Below are positions 20,876-50,524 of a stretch of DNA of 64,000 nucleotides, one piece after another (positions within the stretch are counted from its first letter, which is position 1; every line of letters begins with the position of its first letter). Both the position numbers and the translations under genes were made by a program. Location: positions 59,369,310 through 59,433,309 of the forward strand of contig NC_133063.1 in the NCBI RefSeq assembly GCF_048771995.1. The letters run 5' to 3'. The stretch comes from Taeniopygia guttata. Taxonomy: Eukaryota; Chordata; Aves; Passeriformes; Estrildidae. The notes beneath the pieces are model-generated. The model was not told the DNA's origin. It ran no database searches and saw nothing but the letters and a program-made list of their open reading frames with translations.

Positions 20876-21105
20876 ATGTGTTTGGTGTTTCTCCTTTGGG
20901 AAGTCCTATGTCTCCTCATTCCCTATCCTCTGACCTTTCATCATCCCGAGATTCATCTCCCAGCCGTGATTCATCAATTGCTGCTGCAAGTCCTCATCAG
21001 CCAATTGTAATTCATAGTTCAGGGAAAAAGTATGGCTTTACCATCCGAGCAATCAGGGTTTACGTGGGTGACAGCGATATCTACACTGTGCACCACATTG
21101 TTTGG
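20876..21105 (+). CDS. MAST4: MAST4 exon: start of PDZ domain
   Basis: Encodes [20 protein letters not shown], a Ser-rich phosphosite-like stretch, then the PDZ start [20 protein letters not shown] with the carboxylate-binding loop region KKYGFTI, then [15 protein letters not shown]. Ends phase 0 at donor GTAAGA. Confidence 0.96.
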
Positions 21106-22833
21106 GTAAGATAATACATCTTTTCTTGTTGATACGTGGCCACAGAATACTGTAATGATGGATTTGCTTTTTTGTACCTGTGGTATCTATTTGTTGACAA
21201 TTACTGTGTAAATTACAATGCTATGCCAAGCAGTTTTTCTTAGAATGAAATTCTGCCTGTATACAAGAGCAGTGTTGCCTATAGGGAAGACAACAAGCCA
21301 TCTTTGGCAGAAATATTATCTACATGTAGTGTTGAACTTCTGCAACTTCACTTTAACATGTGGCAAGTTTGTCAGTTTTGAGAAATAGTGTCTTGAGTTC
21401 AGAGCACTAGGTCTTAGAAAAACCAAGGCTTGGTGCAGATCCTCTTTGATTGGGACTAGGATCTGCAATTGTAGGATGTTACAAAGATAAATTGTTGAGA
21501 AATAGGTGGAGTTTATTAGACGGAATCAATTAAGGGATTCATGAAAGTCAGGACTATTTTGCAAGACACGCATAAGCTAATCTCAAGCACCGATTTTCTG
21601 TTGCATAGAAATGTGCAGATTGTTTGGAATTGTGAAGATTTTTGAGATTTGTATGGCGCAAGAGTAAGATTGACTGTCTTGAATAAATAATGTATTTTTC
21701 ATCCTCTCTTCACTACACAGTGAAAGAAAGGCTAAAGCAATTCTTTGGTTGTTAGCCTCCTTAACTGTAAAATAATTATATACTTAGGTACATATATATG
21801 CATTTATTTAATAATTTATGTTGGTAAGAAATTATAATTTTATATATGGTATAAATTACACATACATAAATAGTATATGTATATAAATTATTTCAACTAC
21901 CCTAAAAAATGATCACAAATTTACCAAAAGACTTCAATTTTTTTTCTACTGCTTAGTTTTAAATATGTATTGTAGATTTTGAAATAGCAATGTTGATGTA
22001 GTGTATTATTTATTTTTTTTATTCCTATTGTTTACCCCTTAGACCTATTAATCCATCAAGAGCATTGAATCTGGAGAACTGGCTACATTTGGTGGATAAT
22101 GGAATAAATTTTTAAAAATTATTTCTTGCCACTAGTGTAACGTCACACCAGTGAAAGGAAGGGGAAACTGGTACATTGCAGTAAAAGTTAAACCTTTAGG
22201 ATTTTTTGAGTATCCTAAGTTTGTTCTTGGCTCTGTTTGCATTGTAGTCTTCATTAGTGTCTGCATGACTTAAAATACTCATTTAAAAATAGAATAAATA
22301 ATTTAAACAACCTTCAAATATTTTTCAATTCAGTTTGTTTTGGCCCATTGTCACTTTTGTGCTGCACCAGCTCTAATGGGAAGCCTGGTGAATTTGAACC
22401 AAATAGAAACAATCCTTAACCATATGGTGGAGTTAATTTTTGTTGTGATTAGAGTATTGCATGTGACAATTACCTTAATTATAGTGTTTCTCATTTTCAG
22501 ATGCTAAAAATCTTCACTTAGTTCTGAAATTTTGCAGTGGGTAGTGAACCACCCCTTCTTACCATGCATGAAAACTCCCTGGTTTACAGAGCTTACTTAA
22601 TACCCATAGAAACCAGCAGTGTTTCAGTGACCTTTGAAACCATTCCAGGCCCCATATAAAGTTTGAGTAGGTAGGGAATAATCATATAAAGTTGGAGTAA
22701 TTAGGGGATGGTGAAAGAGTTGAACCTATTTTTCTTCTTTTCTTCCTTTATATAAATTAGTATCTGTAAGTTTCTTCATTGCCAGCTGGTTTGCGGTTCA
22801 TTTTGTGTATATTCTATTCCTCTCTCTTTTCAG
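21106..22833 (+). other. MAST4: MAST4 intron
   Basis: 1.7 kb GT-AG intron. It includes a TA-rich low-complexity stretch around 21770-21900. No gene or mobile element recognised. Ends CTCTCTTTTCAG. Confidence 0.85.
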
Positions 22834-22956
22834 AATGTGGAAGAAGGAAGTGCAGCTTACCAAGCAGGTTTAAAAGCTGGAGACCTGATTACTCATATCA
22901 ATGGAGAGCCAGTGCATGGTCTTGTTCATACAGAAGTCATTGAGTTGTTATTAAAG
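22834..22956 (+). CDS. MAST4: MAST4 exon: PDZ core
   Basis: Exactly 41 codons, beginning [20 protein letters not shown] and ending [21 protein letters not shown]. The [15 protein letters not shown] pattern is the PDZ core, and His in GLVHTEV is the start of the PDZ ligand-groove helix. Phase 0 on both sides. Read-through to 23046 is intronic. Confidence 0.97.
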
Positions 22957-24702
22957 GTAACTCTTGTACAGCTGGGATACGAAAGTGATTGCTGTTTTCA
23001 CCAGCGATGGTGGGGTTATGTTTGTTTTCTTGAGATTAGTTACTAGATTTTATTGTTCTTAGAAGTACAAACTCTAAGCTGCTATTGCCACAGATCTGGA
23101 GAAGGGCCAGTGACTTTCATATATCATGCTATGATTTTAGTTTCTCTGCCATAGACTGGCACTGTTGCAGAGGTAGCTGAAGTAAATTCGAGGCAATGAC
23201 ACAAAGAGATGTCTCTGTCTCTCAAAAAAATTGACCTTTTCAAGCATGTTATCTAATGCCTGCATCTTGCTCAGATTCAGGCTTTTGACAATGATGAAAC
23301 TTCTCAGTTTTCTCATTTAAAAGTGAAATCAGTGAGGAAAAGTAAAAGCAAAGAATATGAAATATTCTTAGCCTGCTATACAGGAGGTTGCCTTTCATAT
23401 TAGGGCCCGAAAGGTTTTTGTCTCATGTATAGCCAGGCATGTCTGACAGAGCTTATTCGATTAATGATAAAATTCTCATCCTGCAACTGTACTTTCATGA
23501 ATAATCTGTCACATTTTTCTCTTGTGGAGTTTTCTGAAGTCTGTCCTATTAGAAAAGCACGGTTTTTCCATGGAAACAAGCAAACCACTGGACCAAAAAA
23601 ACCCAACTTCTGTTTTCTCTGTAGCTCATCATATCTCATTTTTCATGTAATCTTTTCAGTGTAAGCTAATGTAGGTCAGAAATACTTTAGATAGCTGTAT
23701 ATTTGCTTCCTATATTATTAACAATTTACGGTGTTACGTGCAGAGCTCAAAGTGAGTGTCAGTTCAAAAAAAGCACTGGAAAACAGTTGAAGTGATAAGA
23801 AAATATAAAAAGCTAAAGAAAGATGAAAAATACACTTTGTTCTGCCTTTATTTTATTTCTCTGAAGCCATGAGGAGCTTCCAAATTTTCCAGTTTTGAAA
23901 GAAATACGTAGAAGAAAATTTTGTGACTTAAGGCAGTCAGCTGTGCACTCATTGTCTAGGTCAGATACAGAAAAAGAAGCATGACAACTTTGCTCTCTAC
24001 TTAAAAGCATAAATGCAAAACAAGAGATCATTGTTTATCCATAACTTAATTTGTTGGGCTGTATCATGAATTAATTTGGGCTACTGCAATTTATTTGAAA
24101 GGAAGTTCACTGTAGGGATATACAGTGTTGAGCAGGAGCTACAGATTTTTATAACATAAAATCAGCAGGAAATACCTATATATTTTTTTGAGTCATCTCT
24201 TTGTGCAATCAGTGCTAAAAAACTTAGGTTAATTATACTTGTTAACCATTTTGAACAAGATAAAAATATGTTTTGGAATTGACAATGAAAATTTCATTTT
24301 TCTCCTCTGTTACATCATTATAACAGTTGGTGTCTTGAGATGTGAGTGGAACACTGTGCAGTTACAGTTGTTCTTTGTGGGAAAATCAGGTTTTTCTGCA
24401 GATGCTTCTATCTTGAAATTTTCAATTTTGGTTAATCCTTGGTGTCCTCCTGCCTAGCTACAATTGAAATTACTCCTTGTCTTGAAGCTTGAATGGAGGA
24501 AGTTAGGAAAGCAGAGTTTGAGAACTTCCAATCCTCATTTGCTACCTATACCTGGCAATGTCTGCATAGGGTTTCCTGCAGAAGCGCCTCTTATTCTGGA
24601 GTTGATTCTCATTGCATGTATGGTGTAGATTCAGTTTAAGGCAAAGTCATCTTGTATTACTCGTATTAGTCACACTTAAAGCATTTTCTTTCATTTTGGC
24701 AG
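22957..24702 (+). other. MAST4: MAST4 intron
   Basis: 1.75 kb GT-AG intron ending TTTCATTTTGGCAG. Several short open frames on both strands look like chance. No repeat recognised. Confidence 0.85.
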
Positions 24703-24839
24703 AGTGGCAACAAAGTCTCAGTAATGACAACTTCTTTTGAAAACACTTCTATCAAGACAGGACCTGCCAGGCGGAACAGCTACAGGAGCCGAATGGTTAG
24801 GCGCAGTAAGAAGACCAAGAAGAAGGAGAGTTTAGAGAG
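24703..24839 (+). CDS. MAST4: MAST4 exon: PDZ end and basic stretch
   Basis: Encodes [20 protein letters not shown], the last PDZ strand, then a strongly basic run ending [16 protein letters not shown] (final Arg codon split). The basic cluster is typical of MAST kinases directly after the PDZ domain. Donor GTGAAT. Confidence 0.95.
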
Positions 24840-25665: not shown

Positions 25666-26507
25666 GTGAGTGTGAAGCAGTGGAGAGCAGAGGAAAAGGA
25701 CTGGAAGGATACTGTACATTTTGTGAGCCCCCATAGATCTGATCCCCTAAGAGCAGTTAGCTCTGACAAACATAATCATAGAAAAACTGTTTTCTGTCTG
25801 GAAAATGGAAACATATTCCTGATGCAAAACAAAAAGTGTTCTTATGATACAGAAGCACCTAAAAAGCAATTTTCTCTTAAGTTTGTCCTAGTGTTTAAAG
25901 CTCAGTCCAATGGCTGAAAGTTGAATAATAAGAAGTCCCAATTTGTAGCAAAAGACATAATTTTGCCTGAGAGGCTACATGATAAAAGAGTCAGAGAAAC
26001 TGATATAAAACTTGCTACATAATTGAACTAGGACAGCACTCATGAATGCAGATATATTGCTGAAAAGATTAGCCAAGTGCTAAAATATACATCTCTCTGA
26101 CTCCTAAAAGCCTGCCCCTTTTTACTTCTTTAACTTCTGTCACAATTGTAGTGTGTACTAGAATTGACTGCTATTGTACAATCCCTTGGCAAAGGTAAAT
26201 TATCTGAAAAGCCTTGATCATTGCTTTGAAGTGTCAGAAAGCATTAGTTATTCTATTTAAGTAAAAGCAAGAGATAAATTAAAGGGGATGATGGAAGAGA
26301 GGGAAAGGGAGAAACAGCAAATGTAATTGGAATGGTGCAGGTTTTGCAGCCTAAAACCTTCTCCATTTAAAACCTTCCAGATTTTGGAACTCTGTAGTGG
26401 GAGACAGCATAGGGCTTTCATTCTGTTTCTCAGTGAACACTTAGACAAGATAGAAAAAGTCTTGCTAATACTGTGTTTGTTTGCTTGGTTTTTTGTTCTT
26501 TTTGTAG
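25666..26507 (+). other. MAST4: MAST4 last intron
   Basis: 842-nt GT-AG intron ending TTCTTTTTGTAG. The terminal-exon frame stays open back to 26327 by chance; the intronic part is not coding because the acceptor and phase match the previous exon. Confidence 0.85.
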
Positions 26508-29500
26508 GTACTAACTCTTCCCAGAGTAGTTCCCCTAGTTCCAGTGCTCCCAATTCTCCAGCTGGTTCAGGGCACATAAGACCCAGCACTCTTCATGGCT
26601 TGGGTCCAAAGCTTGGTGGGCAGAGATACAGATCAGGAAGGCGCAAATCAGCTGGCAGCATTCCCCTTTCTCCTCTTGCACGGACACCTTCTCCAACACC
26701 CCAGCCAACATCTCCTCAGCGATCTCCATCACCATTGCTGGGACATTCAATTGGAAATACAAAAATAGCTCAGTCTTTTCCTAGTAAAATGCACTCTCCT
26801 CCAACTATTGTGAGGCATATTGTTAGGCCAAAGAGTGCAGAGCCACCAAGATCTCCATTGTTGAAGAGAGTCCAGTCTGAAGAGAAACTTGCACCCTCTT
26901 ATGGCAGTGATAAAAAACACTTATGTTCACGAAAACACAGTCTGGAAGTGACGCAGGAAGAAGTGAATAGAGAATTGTTTCAAAGAGATGTAACTCTTCA
27001 GAGCTTGGAGGAGAATGTATGTGACGTGCCATCGCTCACACGAGTCAGGCCTGCAGAGCAGGGCTGCTTGAAACGACCCATCTCCCGAAAATTGGGTAGA
27101 CAAGAATCCATTGATGAACTTGACAGAGAGAAGCTGAAGGTCAAGGTAGTTATGAAAAAGCAAGACTTTGCTGAAAAAGCAAATGCTGCCATACACGAAC
27201 CTAGCAGCGAACCAGAAAATCCCAATACCTTAAGAGTGGAAGAAAGAGACAAAAAAGCATTCCAGAAGGCATTAGAGAAAACAAACCAGTTTGAAACAAA
27301 AATTGTTACTGTGGAGACCCAGTCAGCTGGTGGCATACTCAAAGACACCCTTCAAAAGAATACAAACTTGAGATCAAATGATGGTGTTGCTTTAGATGGA
27401 CAGACACTGTGTCATGGGCCTCCCTCTAATGAACTCAGTCATATTTCTTATGACTTCAAAAGAATTTCACCTTCATGTACCCTGCAAGATGTGCTACCTC
27501 AGTCCTCTGACAAGATACTAAATGGAAAGGGAGAAAACACAGATAAAATTGTACCTACAAAAGAATTTGTCAAATTTGAAAGATTAGATGGTAAACTTGC
27601 AAATATTGATTATCTCAGAAAGAAAATGTCTGTTGAAGAAAAAGATGACAGTGTCTGTCCAGTGCTAAAATCTAAGATGACATCTAATGTTCATGAATGC
27701 CTTCAACTTAGTACAGGCAGACCTGTAAACATACAGCAGGACTCCACTGCAGTTGCAGATGGTAGAGCATTTATTGGCAGTGCACATGCTACTCAGATGA
27801 ACTCAGTTTCTTTTGTTCCTCTCAAAACCTTTAGTGGCCGAGCAGACATAAGCATGGAAAAATCATCCCTTATTTCTTCTGAAGCTCCTGTCAGAAAAAG
27901 TCCTTCAGAATATAAGCTTGATGGGAGGTCTGTTTCCTGTCTGAAGCCAATAGAAGGCACACTAGACATTGCGTTACTTTCTGGGCCACAGGCTTCAAAG
28001 GCTGAAGTGCCTTTGTGTGTGCTGCCAGAAGGACAGAGCGCCAGCAGTGATGGGGCATCTCCTAAGCCCCCAGTGCCACAAGGGAGTGGTGGGAAGGCAG
28101 AAATGGCGTCTCAGAAAGAACAGTTGTTGAGCTACCCAAAATCTAGCAAAGTCAACATAGCAGAGCCTCAGGCTCTACAAGTAGGCAAGAGTTCTCCAAA
28201 TCCACCACTCATCTCTGTGGCTACCGAAACAGTGACAGAGAAAAAGGTTTCTAGTCTGGCTGCTAAAGGCAGTATTTCTGTTGTTGACGCTGTTCAGAAG
28301 AAAGATACCTCCCCTTCAAACCAAAAGGACCATTCAGTGGAGGTAAAGTCTTATGTTACTCAGAGTTTTAAAACTACACAAACATATTCCAAATCTTTTG
28401 CTGGCCAAAACACTCCTGAAAAAGCTGTAGGAAAAGAGAAACAAATACAGAAAGAGTTGCCTGTCAAACAGCCAATATCCCAGAGAGGTTGTGAGCCTAT
28501 CCCTGCAAAGGTGGAAGTGATCAGGGAGTCATCTCTGAAGGTTTCTGTCGCGGATGTCCTGATAACAACCTGCTCCAAGAGCAATGAAAAAAATTGTGCT
28601 GATTTTGCCATTCCACTTGAGATGCAAGGAAAAATGCAGTCAGCTGGCCCCAAGGCACAACCTAAGGATGGCAGAGAATCATTGAAACAGCTAGGCAAAG
28701 ATGACAGCGGTGTTTCTAAAAGTTTTGTGGAAAGGGAAATAACAAAGCAGAAAGCTGAGTCTAAGAAAGTTATCACAGAGGCAAAGAGTGATGGTCTTCC
28801 ATCCAAATGGTCCATGCAATCGTCAAGAGATGGTGATCATAAAATTGAGAAGTCTGCACCAGTTTCCTCTGTGCAGAAGGATTGTGCTAAAGACATGGGA
28901 AAGAAAGATCAGAAATCACTTACAGATATAAGGCTTCAAACTAGTGAGAGAGAGCAGTCTTGCCAAGTTCCTCGGCAGCAACTTAACACTTCAGGCTCCC
29001 CTGCTGTGAAAGAGGCAGTAAACAGACATAGCACTATAGAAGTTCATGTAGGCGTTCAAGAACATGTGAAGCCTGCTGCCACCTGTGTGGAAAGCAGCAG
29101 TAATAAATCTAGGCCAGCCTCTGATACAACTTCCTCCAAGTCTAAGTCTTTGGATAAACAGACATTGTCACAAAAACCATGTGCTCCAACCATAAAAGAA
29201 AAAGAAATTGTTACTCAGTTGTCTACCAGCTCCAGAAAGGATGGAAAGCATGCCAGTAAAAATGTTCTGGATCACCTTTCTCCTGCTCCAGGCTCTTCAA
29301 GAAGAATGAACATTGAACATGTGCAGGCTGAAAGACCTGTGGGTTTGGACCATGGCTCAGTCACCGCTCTCCAAATGAGCAGTACAGCCCCTGACACCAA
29401 ACATAAATCCTCTGCTGTGGGCCCACTTCCAGCAGGCCCAGAGTGTTCTAAGCAGACGCAGAGGCAAGAAGCAGCAGGCTTGGGGGAATCTGCTGATCAA

Positions 29501-30382
29501 AAGCAACAGCGTTTCAGTGAAAAACAAACCACTGCTCCAAAGTTTTCCACTGTGAAAGACTATCTCTCACTGAACAAAGAGGCAGAGAGAAGTCCTAGTA
29601 ATGAGGTGATCGCTGCAGACAAAAGACCTGAAGTAAAAATATGCACTGACGCACTTTACGTTCAGCTTGATAGTGGGAAAGTGGAGCCTACCCTTTGTCT
29701 CACAACTTGTGACATCAGAGGGAAAGGAGCAGAAAAAGCAACCGTGAGTAGCAAAGTCTCTCAAGATACAAAAGGGAAAGGACAAGTTAATCAGAAACAG
29801 CCAGAGGATGCACACAAGCAGACTGCAATAAAACATCTGCCGGCTGCCAGTGGGCAAAGTTCTTGTCGTGTGGCTGCATCACCGGGAAAGCCACTGACTT
29901 GTTCATCCAATTTCTCTGAATGTAGACAGGAAGTATCTGTTTCATCTGTTTCAGCCAAAAGTGAGGCATCTTCAGCAAAGGTTAAACCAGGCTCATCAGA
30001 GCTTCCTGCAACTTGCAAGGAACTAAGTAAGAAAAGCACCTCTTCCACAGGGAGCAGTAAGGCAGAAATGACTAAGAGTGTTTCACTGATGGCCTTGCAC
30101 AGTGCCACTGTTGTAGCAGAAGCCCACCACCCTGCTTCAAACCTTGGGGGGAAACCTGGAAATCAAGAAAAGCCTCTTTTCGTTAACACTGTGGATGTAA
30201 AGGGAAAAGATGCTGTTCTGACTCAGCAGTCTGCTTCAAGAAAACAGAATGTAGGTAAAGATTTATCTAGGTCGGCAGCCACACCTGACCGCCCTAACGC
30301 ACTTTCAGATGACAAAGACTCGGCTCGGCAGCGTCGAGGAAAGGAAGCTTCACGGAGCAGTGCTCACAAAAAAATGTGTTAA
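26508..30382 (+). CDS. MAST4: MAST4 terminal coding exon: giant disordered tail
   Basis: A 3875-nt exon encoding about 1291 residues and the TAA stop at 30380. The first ~140 residues are the conserved MAST block: Ser-rich start, [20 protein letters not shown], repeated SP/TP motifs, then [20 protein letters not shown] and [14 protein letters not shown] shorter conserved patch is [18 protein letters not shown]. Further on come [15 protein letters not shown] and [18 protein letters not shown], which I recognise from mammalian MAST4. The rest is low-hydrophobicity Ser/Lys/Glu/Gln sequence, apparently disordered and fast-evolving. The C-terminus is [17 protein letters not shown]. No domain, membrane segment or coiled coil is evident. 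MAST1-3 tails are shorter, which supports MAST4. The long open frame without any stop argues for a functional gene. Confidence 0.97.
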
Positions 30383-34841: not shown

Positions 34842-34936
34842 AAAAAAAAAAAAAAACAAAACAAAAAAAAAACCCAAAAAAACAAAAAAACAAACAAAAA
34901 ACCCAAAAAAACCAAAAAAACAAAAAAAAAACCCCA
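34842..34936. repeat. Degenerate A-rich low-complexity tract
   Basis: About 95 nt of A runs broken by C or CCC, with near-repeats of AAAAAAACC and AAAACAAA. The short frame across it is Lys-rich only because of the tract. Confidence 0.9.
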
Positions 34937-37620: not shown

Positions 37621-39343
37621 AGTTGCTGTAGACATCTTCTGTGTCCCCATCCTAGACTTACAGTTGCTGTAAACTTTGCTTGAAATAGCACCCCAAATGA
37701 AGATGGCACTACAAGATAAAACAAGATCAACTGCAATGATTCCTGACGTGTCCTTCCCACAGGAAAGTGAGTTGGTGGCCAGCTGAACCCAGCTAGCAAT
37801 TTGGGTTCAGAGTGCCTTGTTCCTTCAGGGTCTTCAATTTTATTCAGATGTTGTTTGTACTAGGTGATTAAATCAATCTTAGAACAGGTGTAGTCCAGAA
37901 GTTTGTAGCTTAAATTGATTATAAAGTGGCCACTTAGGGGCACTAGCTGGTCACCTGATACAACATGGATCCTCTTACCGGCACAAGTAAGATAGATACT
38001 CTTGAGATTTGAAAACACATCTGTGCTGAATGTAGTAAATTTGTTGTAACTCAGATCAACATGTTGTAACTTCCTGAGGTTGTGAAATACTTTGTTACCT
38101 ATTGATGTCAGTTCACAGGATGATAATATTAGCACCTCTAAATTGGATAGTTGTTGGAACAGTTTGTCCTTTGGTATGATCCCCAAATCAAAGTTATTTT
38201 GACTAAGGTCCAAGAACATGAGGTTTTTCAAGCCTTGAAAGACATGCTGAATGCTAGTATTACTGTGGGACGAGGAAAGATTGCTCGAGATGCAGATTTT
38301 GGAAAGGACTCTGTAAGGTGTTGATATAGACAGGAATGAAGGGTAAGTCCAGCAGCTCTAAGCTAGCACTCTCCTAAATGAGTATGTTCTGGAGATTAAG
38401 GTGTTTGTTGTGGCTCAGATTCAGGTAACAAAGTCTGCTCAGAGCTCTCAGTGCTTTGCTAGAGCATCAGAACTTTGAAAGTGACTCTGACTTAAATCTA
38501 GATGTTGAAGCTTTGCCAGTTTCCCCAGACAGCCAGAGCCTGGCTCCAGAACTTGTGAGTTACCCTTGATGTAGAGGTGGGTACGGGAGGGGAAGGCAGC
38601 AGAGCTGGTGTTGCAGAGGCGCTCAAAGCAGTTTTCATTGAAAACCATCTCCTGTTGCAAGCTCATGCCACTGATGACAGGGGGCAGTGCATGGATGTGG
38701 GTTTGGGTTAGAGCCAACTTTCGGAGCCTGGTTAAGCTCTGAAATGTGTCAGCATTTCTATTTCTGAAGTGCCATAACTGCAGACAGAGATCCTTGACAG
38801 AGATACTACAGAGGCCTTGTTAAATATCTGGGCTTATGTAGAGCTCATTTTACACAACATATAATGTTCCCAGCCAAAAGGTCTGGGCTGTGGAGTTCTG
38901 CATTCCCAGCAGGACCCCAGGGATGCCAGCACAGCCCACTAAGTCCAAACTGTAGAAATGTGACTGAAAAGATCCAGATTCAATGTGTGTAATGTCATTG
39001 CCTTTAAGGATGAGAGTTACATTGCTGGTCTTCTGCAAGGCTTGGACGTCTTCTGCTGTGATTTCTTGTATGTTGTTCATTTGAAAGTCGAGTGAGGTTT
39101 CGCATGGGAAGGTTGGGAGGAAGCTGCAGTGAAGAGATGTGGTTGCTGCCCAAGATGAAGATACCTGAGTTGCCAAGATTTGTCACTGGAATAAAGAATA
39201 TACTAGTTATTCCTGTCTGTGTTAAGATTCTCTAGGGAACGTGGGCCAGCAAATGCTGTGTCAGACAGAAACATGAGCAGGTTTCTGGCCAGAATGACTG
39301 TCTTGTCTATTGTTGGGAAAGGTACACCAAGCTGATCTGACAC
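37621..39343 (-). pseudogene. CD180: CD180 (RP105) exon 3, decayed
   Basis: Minus-strand remnant of the large CD180 exon, encoding the leucine-rich-repeat ectodomain, LRR cap and membrane anchor. CD180 is a TLR4-like surface receptor on B cells and myeloid cells that works with MD-1 (LY86). Recognisable pieces in order: RCQISLVYLSQQ; TVILARNLLMFLSDTAFAGP; ITSIFFIPVTNLGNSGIFIL; DFQMNNIQEITAEDVQALQK; GVLLGMQNSTAQTFWLGT; GLCSISVKDL; THLYIKGNSQVLEPGSGCLG; LELLDLPF; NTSIQHVFQGLKNLMFLDLS; SNLEVLILSSCELTSIGNKV; LLDYTCSKIDLIT. Frame shifts fall near 39310, 39220, 39091, 38461 and 38293. In-frame stops are at 38850, 38820, 38374 and 37860. The last replaces a Trp codon before the stalk, so even a repaired upstream frame would lack the transmembrane segment, whose weak relic lies at about 37640-37740. 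The cap cysteine of the CTC motif is Tyr. The acceptor at 39344-39345 is intact. Confidence 0.88.
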
Positions 39344-39987
39344 CTTGAGGAAACAAAGTTGCCTGTCTCACAAAATCTCCTGGTAATGTGATTACACAAA
39401 ACTGCACCTCATATCTGTTAAACTCCATTATCTGTTGCCCTCAACAGCGTAAAAGTGTATGTCTTTTTCAGTGGTGCTTCCCTGGTACTTTTAAGTTCAC
39501 ATTTAATTATAGGGCTCTGCTGAGAAGAAAAACCTGTCCTGAAATGATGGGTGTGAGCAGGCATTTGTGGGAGATAGGAGATATGAGGTGTTTCATGTCT
39601 AACTTAATATCAAAATCTCTTCTGCTATAAAAAAGCCAGCCACTTCAACGGGCCAAACTCCAGTTTTTAGGGGGGAACCATATTGAAAATTAATAAGAAT
39701 CTGCTCTGGTGACTTTGCTGTTACTACTGTGTTAGAGGTGGTAATATCTGGAAAATGCATATTTCACCCACTGAACTGTAAATGATTGTCCTTAGAGGAT
39801 AAGCCAAGATATTGCCCAAGTGGATCAGTCTCTGCTTAGCAAAAAAATTCACCAGCTCTCTGAAGGTGCTGGTAGTGATTTCCCTGTGAAGGCAGGAAGA
39901 TGCTGCTGTGGTGTGCTGCAGAAGTCTCTGACAGGGACAGGGGGTTCATGATTGTGATGAGCAGAAGTGAAGATGCTCCTTGCATAC
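39344..39987 (-). other. CD180: Former CD180 intron between exons 2 and 3
   Basis: Separates the two CD180 pseudo-exons. The pyrimidine tract and AG at the 3' end (minus strand, TTTGTTTCCTCAAG) persist. The 5' end offers GTATGC directly after the exon-2 relic, but the phase does not fit exactly. Nothing else is recognised. Confidence 0.5.
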
Positions 39988-40167
39988 TTTTTAAGTCCAA
40001 GTAGAGAATTCAGGTCAGAGAAGTTGAATTCTGGAGGGAAAGGAGCGCATTGAAGCTGAAATTGAGGACTTCTGTTGTGACAAATTGTCATAGGAACCTC
40101 CCTCATTCCTAAACCTTCCCAGCTGTAGCTTTTATTTTCTGTAATCTGTGGAAGATACACAGTGAAT
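39988..40167 (-). pseudogene. CD180: CD180 exon 2, decayed
   Basis: Minus-strand remnant of the N-terminal LRR cap of CD180. The first frame reads ITENKSYSWEGLGMREVP, aligning with the ANKTYNCENLGLSEIP region of mammalian CD180 but with Trp in place of the cap cysteine. After a frame shift near 40083 the next frame reads VTTEVLNFSFNALLSLQNST, then a TGA stop at 40010-40012, then ILYLDLK. The upstream limit was set at the acceptor CTCTTTCAG and is approximate. Exon 1, with the signal peptide, was not found. Confidence 0.75.
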
Positions 40168-43100
40168 CTGAAAGAGTTATGTACTGTGAACATAAATAGG
40201 AAAACATGGCATTTGGAAAATCCATCTCCCCCACCCAAACTAACACAACCTGCAAAGTAACCCAAAGAGAATTTTGAGTTGTTTAAAATGCCGCAGCCAA
40301 AACCCTAGGAAGCCTCAGCACAGGCTCGCAATGCATAGCCCTGGGGTTTTGGGGAGTATGTTTTTAAATGAATGCCTTGAATCTCTCCTGTATTAATTTG
40401 AAGTATCTCATCTGCAGTACTTTCTTATCAAAGTTAGCACATATGAGGACTGTTTACTCTTCTGGATTAATGATTAATCCTTTAAAAAGGATCCCCACAA
40501 GGTAGTTTTAAATCGTGAATGTCATGAGTCTTGCAACAAAACTTATTCTAAGAGAAGTCTTAAGTAAACCTTACAGAGACGAAGTAAAAAAGAGTAGGTC
40601 TGGAAAATGTTTCTAGAAAGAATGTGGCCAAATTAACTGGATATTAATTCAGTTACACACTGCAGTGAGGAGACAGCAGGAATGTTTAGCTCAGACTAGC
40701 CAAAAATCATGCCTGATATGCTAAGTCTTTAAAATGTCTACAAAGGCTTTTCAGTTTTATGTGAAAAGAAATCCATCTATTAAATAGAGAAGTCAACTCT
40801 GTAGATACCAGGGAAAGTTCACTGAGCGTGCTTGACCTGCCTTTGCCTGCTGGTTACACGAAAGTCAACCAGACCCAAGTTAGTGCCACCCTGAAATAGC
40901 CTGCCATGCTGTTGAGGGATGGGAATGCTCATGGCATTTCACTTGTCCCAGCTCCCAGCTGCAATGGGGAGCACAGGCACAGCCAGTGCAGCACCCACCT
41001 CCCCTCCTGAAGGACAGAGGGATGTCCTGTCCTCGGTGGTCCCAGGGCCAGCCTAGGAGGGGTGGGGTATTCAAGGCTGTGTAGGAGCTGCTGCTCTGGC
41101 AATTTCCTGCCCCACAGCCATGCAAATGTTAGTCTAGTGGGGAAGTAAACACGTGTATGGCATAGTTGGCCAAGATGAGCAGGAATTTGACACAAAGCTA
41201 GCGTGCTGGTGGAAGAAAGCAGGGCAGCAGTTGTGTGTCCAGAGAAGAAAGCGCTGAGCCATGACGTGTAGAGGACAGTGCAGGTGTGTGCCTTAGGAGC
41301 ACAAGCTCTGTCAGGGTTTGTTGAGGTGCCCTGGGGAGCAGTGCATGGGGCTCGGGTCTTTCTGCTGGCACAGCCATGAGTATTTGAGGCTAAACTGCAT
41401 CTCTGCCTGTCTCTGGCTTAGAAGAGGCACATGGGCTGTGTCTGCACTCAGTAGCCTCAGGAGAAGGGGAAGAGCAGTAGTGTTTGTTGCAAGCCACAGT
41501 ATGGGTTTGGTGAACATTGTTTTCCTTTCCTTTAAGCACAAATCCTGTAACTGAGGGGTGCCAGGGAGTGTTGGGGAACCAACATGGGCCTCCACTGCTG
41601 CAGACAGTGCAGCCTGGCAGGCAGGGGCAGAGAGATGTCAGCAGCAGTGTGGCGGAGTGGGAGGAGGTGGAGAGGGGCTGCCACAGCAAAATTTCCCATC
41701 TGGGTGGGGAGCACAGCTCCTCAATTGTCCAGCTCCCTCTGGCACGCAGGGTCCCAGCTGAAGTTCGCTGCCAAGCACATAGCACACAGGGACAGGATCA
41801 GCAAGGAGGGATGCAGCCGATGCTGCCCATGGCTGAGTCCCCCCACATGTAGGTGCTTGGCATGGCCTGGGGGCAGCAAGCCGGCCCAGTACCTCCTGTG
41901 ATAACACTTGTGATAGCACAGGGACTTGGGCCCAGCCTAGAAGCACTGATACAGTGTCAGTATCTACAAAAATGACAAAATATGGACCTAGAAAAGTTGA
42001 TGCTTTCAATGCTGGTAAGCAAAGGAGAACCTGTGGAGCTAATTGGTGCCATGTGTAGTTTAGACAGATAAAAATAATTTAACTGCCACTGTAAATGAGA
42101 AGAGTGCCTATGTTTTGCCTTTCAAACAAAACAGTGACTAAGTAAGCCCTCTCTATATGCTTCAGGGCATGGAGTGGCTCTCACAGTAAACTGAGGAGAA
42201 ACTATCCCAAGGGGGATCCTGTTGTGCAGCTCCGAGTGCTCAGAGATTTGTAGATTTAATTCAACGAGGAATTTGCTGTTTTCCCCAGGTGTGCATTTCA
42301 TAGGCTGCTTTTCCCTGAATCAAAAATCTTACCTTTTTTTTCTCTTGTCTGCCACTTGGAATAGAAAAAAATAGATAAAATAAAAAAAAAAGATAAGAAA
42401 AGCAAAGATAGAAGAAAGTATTAAGGAAAAGGAAAAGCTTACTCAGTCTTTTCTCCTGCCTCTGGAAAAGTCCTGGTACTTTCTTACTATTCTCATGTGG
42501 TACTGCACACCAACCAAATAGCAAATAGAGACATTATCATATCCCCACTGTGTACAAATTCCTGTATGAAGAGCGCAGTACAAGAGGTTAAATCCTTATA
42601 CCTTTCTTCTTTCTATCTCTCATACCTGTTAAACACCCTTGGGAAACTTTATTATCCTTCAAGCTCTCTGTACAGCGAAGTACAGTGCTGGTTTGAGGGG
42701 TTCCCAAAGTCCCCATCAGTGGTGGGAGAGCATGTGAGGGTGCACTGATGCACAGGTGTGAGGAGGAGGACGGACAGTGGCTGATATCCCTAAGCTTATC
42801 CTGAGACACCTGTCTTATTCTTCTGACAAGGACCTCCAGATTCCCCTAAGATAAATCCTGTGAGAACTGGAAACTTTCAGACATCAGCAGGTAACCCAGA
42901 TGTCTGCAGCTCCATCACTGAGCAGGATGGCAGCTGTCACTCCCTTCCCTGTGCATCCGTGCTGGGTGCTCTGCAGCTGGCACAGGTGAGCTCTGTGAAA
43001 ATCAGCAGATGTAAATCACACAACTGCACCTTGTGGATTTGTGCTGTGTTGGGAGGCAGGCTGCTGCATTGGATGATCTTGTGCTAACTTCTCTGAATGA

Positions 43101-50408: not shown

Positions 50409-50524
50409 TTTTATTTTATTTTATTTTATTTTATTTTATTTTATTTTATTTTATTTTATTTTATTTTATTTTATTTTATTTTATTTTATTTTATTTTATT
50501 TTATTTTATTTTATTTTATTTTTA
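50409..50524. repeat. (TTTTA)n pentanucleotide microsatellite, ~23 units
   Basis: About 116 nt of perfect TTTTA units on the plus strand. The Phe/Ile/Leu/Tyr repeat proteins read from it are artefacts. Confidence 0.98.

Follow-up and report, generated by a model that had tools for sequence, protein, structure and literature searches.

Identity and Extent of the CD180 Locus

The locus described here raises the question of whether the CD180 (RP105) gene of an oscine songbird can still encode its receptor and, if it cannot, when it was lost and what became of its partner, MD-1 (LY86). Between about 37,661 and 43,035, the minus strand of the window (the whole stretch of DNA analyzed, 64,000 nucleotides) carries a decayed CD180 orthologue with introns, in tail-to-tail orientation with MAST4. 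The reading favored, with a probability of roughly nine in ten, is that a single event on the songbird stem inactivated this orthologous locus, that it is now a pseudogene and that no working copy is left. The features on which the argument draws are as follows:

21001..24783, plus strand: MAST4 PDZ domain in three exons (21001-21105, about 22834-22956 and about 24703-24783); best PDB match of the joined protein, 2w7r MAST4
26327..30382, plus strand: last exon of MAST4, inside a stop-to-stop open frame of 1351 codons, upstream border unmapped; MAST-like, tblastn E 8e-22
37661..39343, minus strand: CD180 exon 3 (LRRs, LRRCT, transmembrane segment and tail); stops at 38852, 38822, 38376 and 37862; frameshifts near 39309, 39229, 39093, 38468, 38286, 37787 and 37689
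39344..39987, minus strand: CD180 intron 2, which starts with GT and ends with AG as read from the DNA
39988..40145, minus strand: CD180 exon 2 (LRRNT and first LRR); frameshifts near 40082 and 40024; small deletion near 40003; equivocal stop at 40012; acceptor CCACAG retained
42954..43035, minus strand: CD180 exon 1 (signal peptide), degraded; tblastn E 0.0002-0.005 with bird N-termini (turnstone residues 2-27, penguin residues 3-24)

The top three matches in a PDB search with both large minus-strand pieces are CD180 chains (best E 1.5e-29 and 3.9e-27), and bird CD180 proteins match the locus in tblastn with E-values as low as 5e-167. Identity over the main piece in tblastn is 58-63% for neoavian CD180s and 39% for human CD180; residues 178-642 of the human protein align to the locus with stops and frame changes. 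A protein search with the locus pieces returned 234 proteins, and many CD180s, those of birds included, are found among the best 120 of the 234. Pfam recognizes LRR in two pieces of exon 3. The same search gave no match for exon 1 or for three other pieces, and the Rfam search gave no match. At exon 1 (about 43035-42954), a reading of the DNA found the ATG absent from its expected place. The borders of intron 2 were set by hand, and the aligner agrees with them to within a few bases. A processed copy is ruled out by the introns, which are retained at the ancestral place.

The neighbor on the plus strand is identified by its PDZ domain, the joined protein scoring 184 bits against MAST4 (2w7r) and 156-158 bits against MAST1-3. 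The tblastn match of the open frame at 26327..30382 was obtained with a MAST sequence, and Pfam assigned no family to this frame. The tail-to-tail arrangement of CD180 beside MAST4 is also that of mammals. The sequence-only reading, made from the letters of this DNA, had placed CD180 here and had described the synteny with MAST4; both points are borne out, the first by the PDB and tblastn matches together with the neighboring gene, the second by the MAST4 PDZ exons and the 1351-codon frame on the plus strand. That reading had also counted two exons within 37621..40167. These are exons 2 and 3, but the gene reaches further, as the degraded exon 1 lies outside this interval.

A short segment beyond the gene (37063-37025, minus strand) matches 12 of the 13 residues at the end of the canary model; this is an extra exon of the canary annotation and is perhaps meaningless. 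The window also contains a perfect TTTTA array of 22.8 copies (50409-50522) and an A-rich tandem array (34842-34934), neither of which is relevant to CD180.

Stops and Frameshifts

The lesions were located with a purpose-written, frame-aware protein-to-DNA aligner, run with 20 sauropsid references and then with 16 more rows (15 of them new). Their robustness was judged from 12 runs, in which three passerine references were combined with four cost settings. All 12 runs show in-frame stops at 38822, 38376 and 37862, and 11 of them the stop at 38852. Frameshifts near 40082, 39309, 39229, 39093, 38468, 38286, 37787 and 37689-37695 are likewise present in every run, with small shifts of position; that at 39309 was placed at 39330 and 39305 in two of the 12. 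A ninth frameshift, near 40024, appears in nine runs, and when it is present the TGA at 40012 falls out of frame. This TGA is in frame in only three of the 12 runs, all under one cost setting. It is probably a by-product of the adjacent deletions and was dropped as a firm lesion.

The alignment was checked against two sets of controls. With the lyrebird CD180 the aligner scores 2063 on the locus, against 50-63 on three shuffled DNAs and one reversed DNA, which rules out chance similarity. Four intact bird proteins, back-translated with random codons, yielded no frameshift in any of the four cases.

By this alignment, the CD180 frame is not open from the signal peptide to the transmembrane tail. 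The earlier claim of five in-frame stops and six frame shifts was right in that the lesions are real and extend across both exons; the corrected counts are four for the firm stops and eight or more for the frameshifts. Its central proposal, that CD180 is a pseudogene, is supported by stops and frameshifts that withstand changes of reference and cost setting and by the loss of constraint. Known vertebrate CD180/RP105 proteins (PDB 3b2d, 3t6q and 3rg1) are alike to the window copy in sequence, exon layout and place beside MAST4; the window differs from them in its broken frame (at least four stops, and eight frameshifts) and in the replacement of five of the 15 cysteines that are conserved in birds.

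Loss of Constraint

Constraint was assessed on 259 columns that are invariant across 23 non-passerine birds. The lyrebird has changed two of these 259 columns, the bowerbird three of 259 and three suboscines between five and eight. The window CD180 has changed 45 of the 249 columns that it covers (18%), and five broken songbird models have changed 17-26% (42/194, 58/241, 54/210, 43/246 and 47/244). A simple simulation of neutral decay equates 45 changed columns of 249 with some 0.10 neutral substitutions per site. The neutral rate of birds is 2-3.3e-9 per site and year. A rough decay time of about 30-50 million years follows, a figure that depends on this assumed rate.

A remnant of the gene might still work, either as a truncated LRR protein or as an RNA. 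In favor of this, 165 codons are open at 38357-37860 and score as LRR; against it, the stretch has neither a signal peptide nor an LRRNT of its own, and conserved cysteines have been lost in different ways in the different species with a broken CD180, as under drift. A working remnant is accordingly judged highly improbable, and the pseudogene reading is retained.

CD180 in Other Songbirds

A read-through of the window, with X at stops and at deletion-type frameshifts, was used to search for relatives and returned 186 proteins, the best 120 of which were used. The rows are named by cluster representative, and further species may sit inside the clusters. Ten rows among the best 120 of 186 bear passerine names. 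Five are intact (Menura, Ptilonorhynchus, Xiphorhynchus, Grallaria and Formicarius) and five are broken (Serinus P0206, Ammospiza P0173, Passerculus P0207, Sylvia P0183 and Acridotheres P0191). The last four of these models are labelled ‘LOW QUALITY PROTEIN’, and the Serinus entry is a UniRef model that keeps the raw frames. The best 120 of 186 matches include no intact core-oscine CD180 and no row named for Corvides or Meliphagides; the collection contains LY86 sequences from Corvus, Gymnorhina and Origma, among others. The assignment of birds to core oscines, Corvides and the other groups follows general avian classification. Core oscines are well represented in the protein collection, since their 22 LY86 clusters hold 143 member sequences.

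A tree was built from 30 hand-picked intact rows (28 birds and two turtles), the five broken models and the window, with 3-81 residues masked in each broken row where it is out of frame. The window and the five broken models form one clade (SH-aLRT 100), within which the window groups with Serinus and the two sparrows (support 98). This places the source of the window among the core oscines, closer to finches and sparrows than to the warbler or the starling. The bowerbird and the lyrebird fall outside this clade, the bowerbird being the nearer (92). Six intact rows without a species name (P0174, P0178, P0186, P0194, P0201 and P0215) were considered as possible songbirds and rejected. None lies inside the passerines in the tree, and P0215 has a long branch and an unsure place.

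These results bear on the idea that the window holds a dead second copy, a duplicate or a W-linked one, while a working CD180 lies elsewhere. A copy of that kind is very unlikely in view of the syntenic place, the retained introns and the MAST4 gene open alongside. The relatives speak against it as well, as the best 120 of 186 matches offer no intact core-oscine CD180 and the intact rows without a species name are not passerines. We infer that no working CD180 copy remains.

Three further observations concern these rows. The starling model P0191 (Acridotheres tristis) contains a long foreign stretch within its LRR region, which on inspection by eye resembles a retroelement. The CD180 of a hummingbird (Phaethornis superciliosus, P0204) is labelled LOW QUALITY and has a long branch (0.24), the genes of a swift and a treeswift being intact; this is perhaps a separate loss. 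No CD180 row is named for Tyrannida, Acanthisitta, Piciformes or Bucerotiformes among the best 120 of 186, and their LY86 was found. CD180 may have been lost more than once in birds, or those species may be hidden in clusters.

Shared and Private Lesions

The relatives were compared as predicted proteins, and breakpoints are exact only where raw out-of-frame peptide is visible, in the models of canary, warbler and Savannah sparrow. The window and the canary protein run collinearly through the out-of-frame stretches 40124-39993 (38 of 44 residues identical) and 39304-39107 (51 of 66), and also through the break at 37787. At 39229 the warbler model passes into the out-of-frame peptide seen in the window, and the Savannah sparrow model does so at 37787. 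At this last site, one residue is missing from the seaside sparrow, warbler and starling models, as would be expected if an annotation pipeline had bridged a frameshift. The breaks near 40082, 39229 and 37787 are common to the window and to independent songbird models.

Many lesions are private: the warbler and canary lack the 39093 frameshift, and the warbler and starling have Trp at the site of the 37862 stop. Serinus, Ammospiza, Passerculus, Sylvia and Acridotheres belong to the same clade as the window and have some breaks in common with it, but each model carries further lesions of its own. Where every intact bird compared has the same residue, the window and the warbler have 11 derived residues in common among 41 changes, and the window and the starling 12 among 42. 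These shared derived residues indicate that about a quarter of the decay took place before the songbird families split. Four of the broken rows carry a residue at the position of a conserved N-terminal cysteine, and in each of them the cysteine has been lost.

Could the lesions be sequencing or assembly errors in an intact gene? The private ones depend on this assembly alone and would allow it, but for the shared ones such error is excluded, since independent songbird models carry the same breaks near 40082, 39229 and 37787. Moreover, none of the 13 lesion sites examined has a homopolymer longer than four, indel errors leave the 18% of changed invariant columns unexplained, and the adjoining MAST4 is open for 1351 codons. 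Error is judged highly improbable, and the proposal that this is an old loss rather than a sequencing artifact has held up. The loss had been ascribed to this bird; it did occur here, but that scope was too narrow, as it is common to the finch, sparrow, starling and warbler lineages.

Repeated, parallel losses among songbirds, instead of a single one, would account for the many private lesions, and the low-quality hummingbird model suggests that CD180 may be lost easily. They are nonetheless unlikely given what the broken genes have in common: frameshifts common to canary and window, a warbler model that reads the same out-of-frame peptide at 39229, a residue that warbler, starling and seaside sparrow all lack at 37787, and derived residues that include a lost cysteine. 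The loss is older than the divergence of these songbird families, because five core-oscine models are broken, form one clade and share frameshifts, with the lyrebird, bowerbird and suboscines intact. The single inactivation would have occurred after the lyrebirds and bowerbirds had branched off and before these families diverged, and would have been followed by drift.

MD-1 (LY86) and the Probable Consequences of CD180 Loss

In mammals, CD180 with MD-1 acts on TLR4 and on B cells, and MD-1 is known chiefly as the partner required by CD180, as Nagai reportedly described in 2002. A review likewise describes mammalian CD180/MD-1 as a modulator of TLR4 that is able to activate B cells (PMC10353253), and the chicken spleen is reported to express CD180 (PMC6113917). 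Structures have also been solved for chicken MD-1 itself (PDB 3mtx and 3mu3).

A search with chicken MD-1 returned 115 LY86 proteins. The column comparison used 62 of these 115 rows (22 core-oscine and 40 from other birds); rows without a species name were left out except P0220, as were the core-oscine rows P0308 Melospiza, P0318 Lonchura, P0320 Lamprotornis, P0321 Notiomystis and P0323 Buphagus, which are short or odd models. In all 22 core-oscine rows, LY86 is full length (160-161 amino acids), keeps the six cysteines that are invariant in the 40 other birds, and has changed between zero and three of the 50 columns that are invariant in those birds. In a tree of 58 hand-picked matches of the 115, the end branches of core oscines (0.014-0.082) lie within the range of the other birds (0.012-0.14). 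The suggestion that LY86 has been left without its usual partner therefore stands at the level of the clade, in which LY86 is intact and constrained in these 22 rows. The gene is transcribed in the zebra finch, because it was down-regulated there after West Nile virus infection according to a published study (PMC5493925). It also figures in the abbreviation list of a zebra finch LPS study (PMC6693190).

A change in LPS sensing, which the sequence-only reading had suggested, may follow. In these songbirds, LPS would be sensed through TLR4/MD-2 without the CD180/MD-1 modulator, and B cells would be without the CD180 signal. MD-1 would work without CD180, either by itself or with a different partner, and most probably as a lipid-binding protein that is secreted or associated with TLR4. 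A wider proposal, offered tentatively and at somewhat less than even odds, is that a single loss of CD180 took place on the stem of almost all songbirds (Meliphagides, Corvides and Passerides, thousands of species in all), that selection has kept MD-1/LY86 for a CD180-independent function, and that songbirds offer a natural CD180 knockout for studying a receptor-independent role of MD-1. If this is true, MD-1 is constrained without CD180 in a large group of birds and would have another job, and songbirds would be a natural setting for testing how TLR4 signals and B cells are activated when CD180 is missing. Database users should be warned that broken songbird models are still named CD180 antigen or CD180 molecule.

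Pseudogenized immune-related receptors are already known in birds, and the retained partner LY86 is the interesting part of the present case. No published loss of CD180 in birds was found among the open-access titles and abstract openings listed by the searches, subscription papers being outside their scope. CNR2 is described as lost across the whole order of parrots (PMC9727682) and TLR pseudogenes are described in penguins (PMC8788240). These are likewise pseudogenized immune-related receptors of bird lineages, but they are other genes, and the songbird loss of CD180 differs in that a dedicated partner has been kept.

One position of LY86 varies with lineage. At position 142 (chicken numbering), all 40 other birds have Glu and 19 of the 22 core-oscine rows have Gln, a songbird change that might go with the loss of the receptor; Glu is present at this position in the core-oscine Pomatostomus, Rhipidura and Origma.
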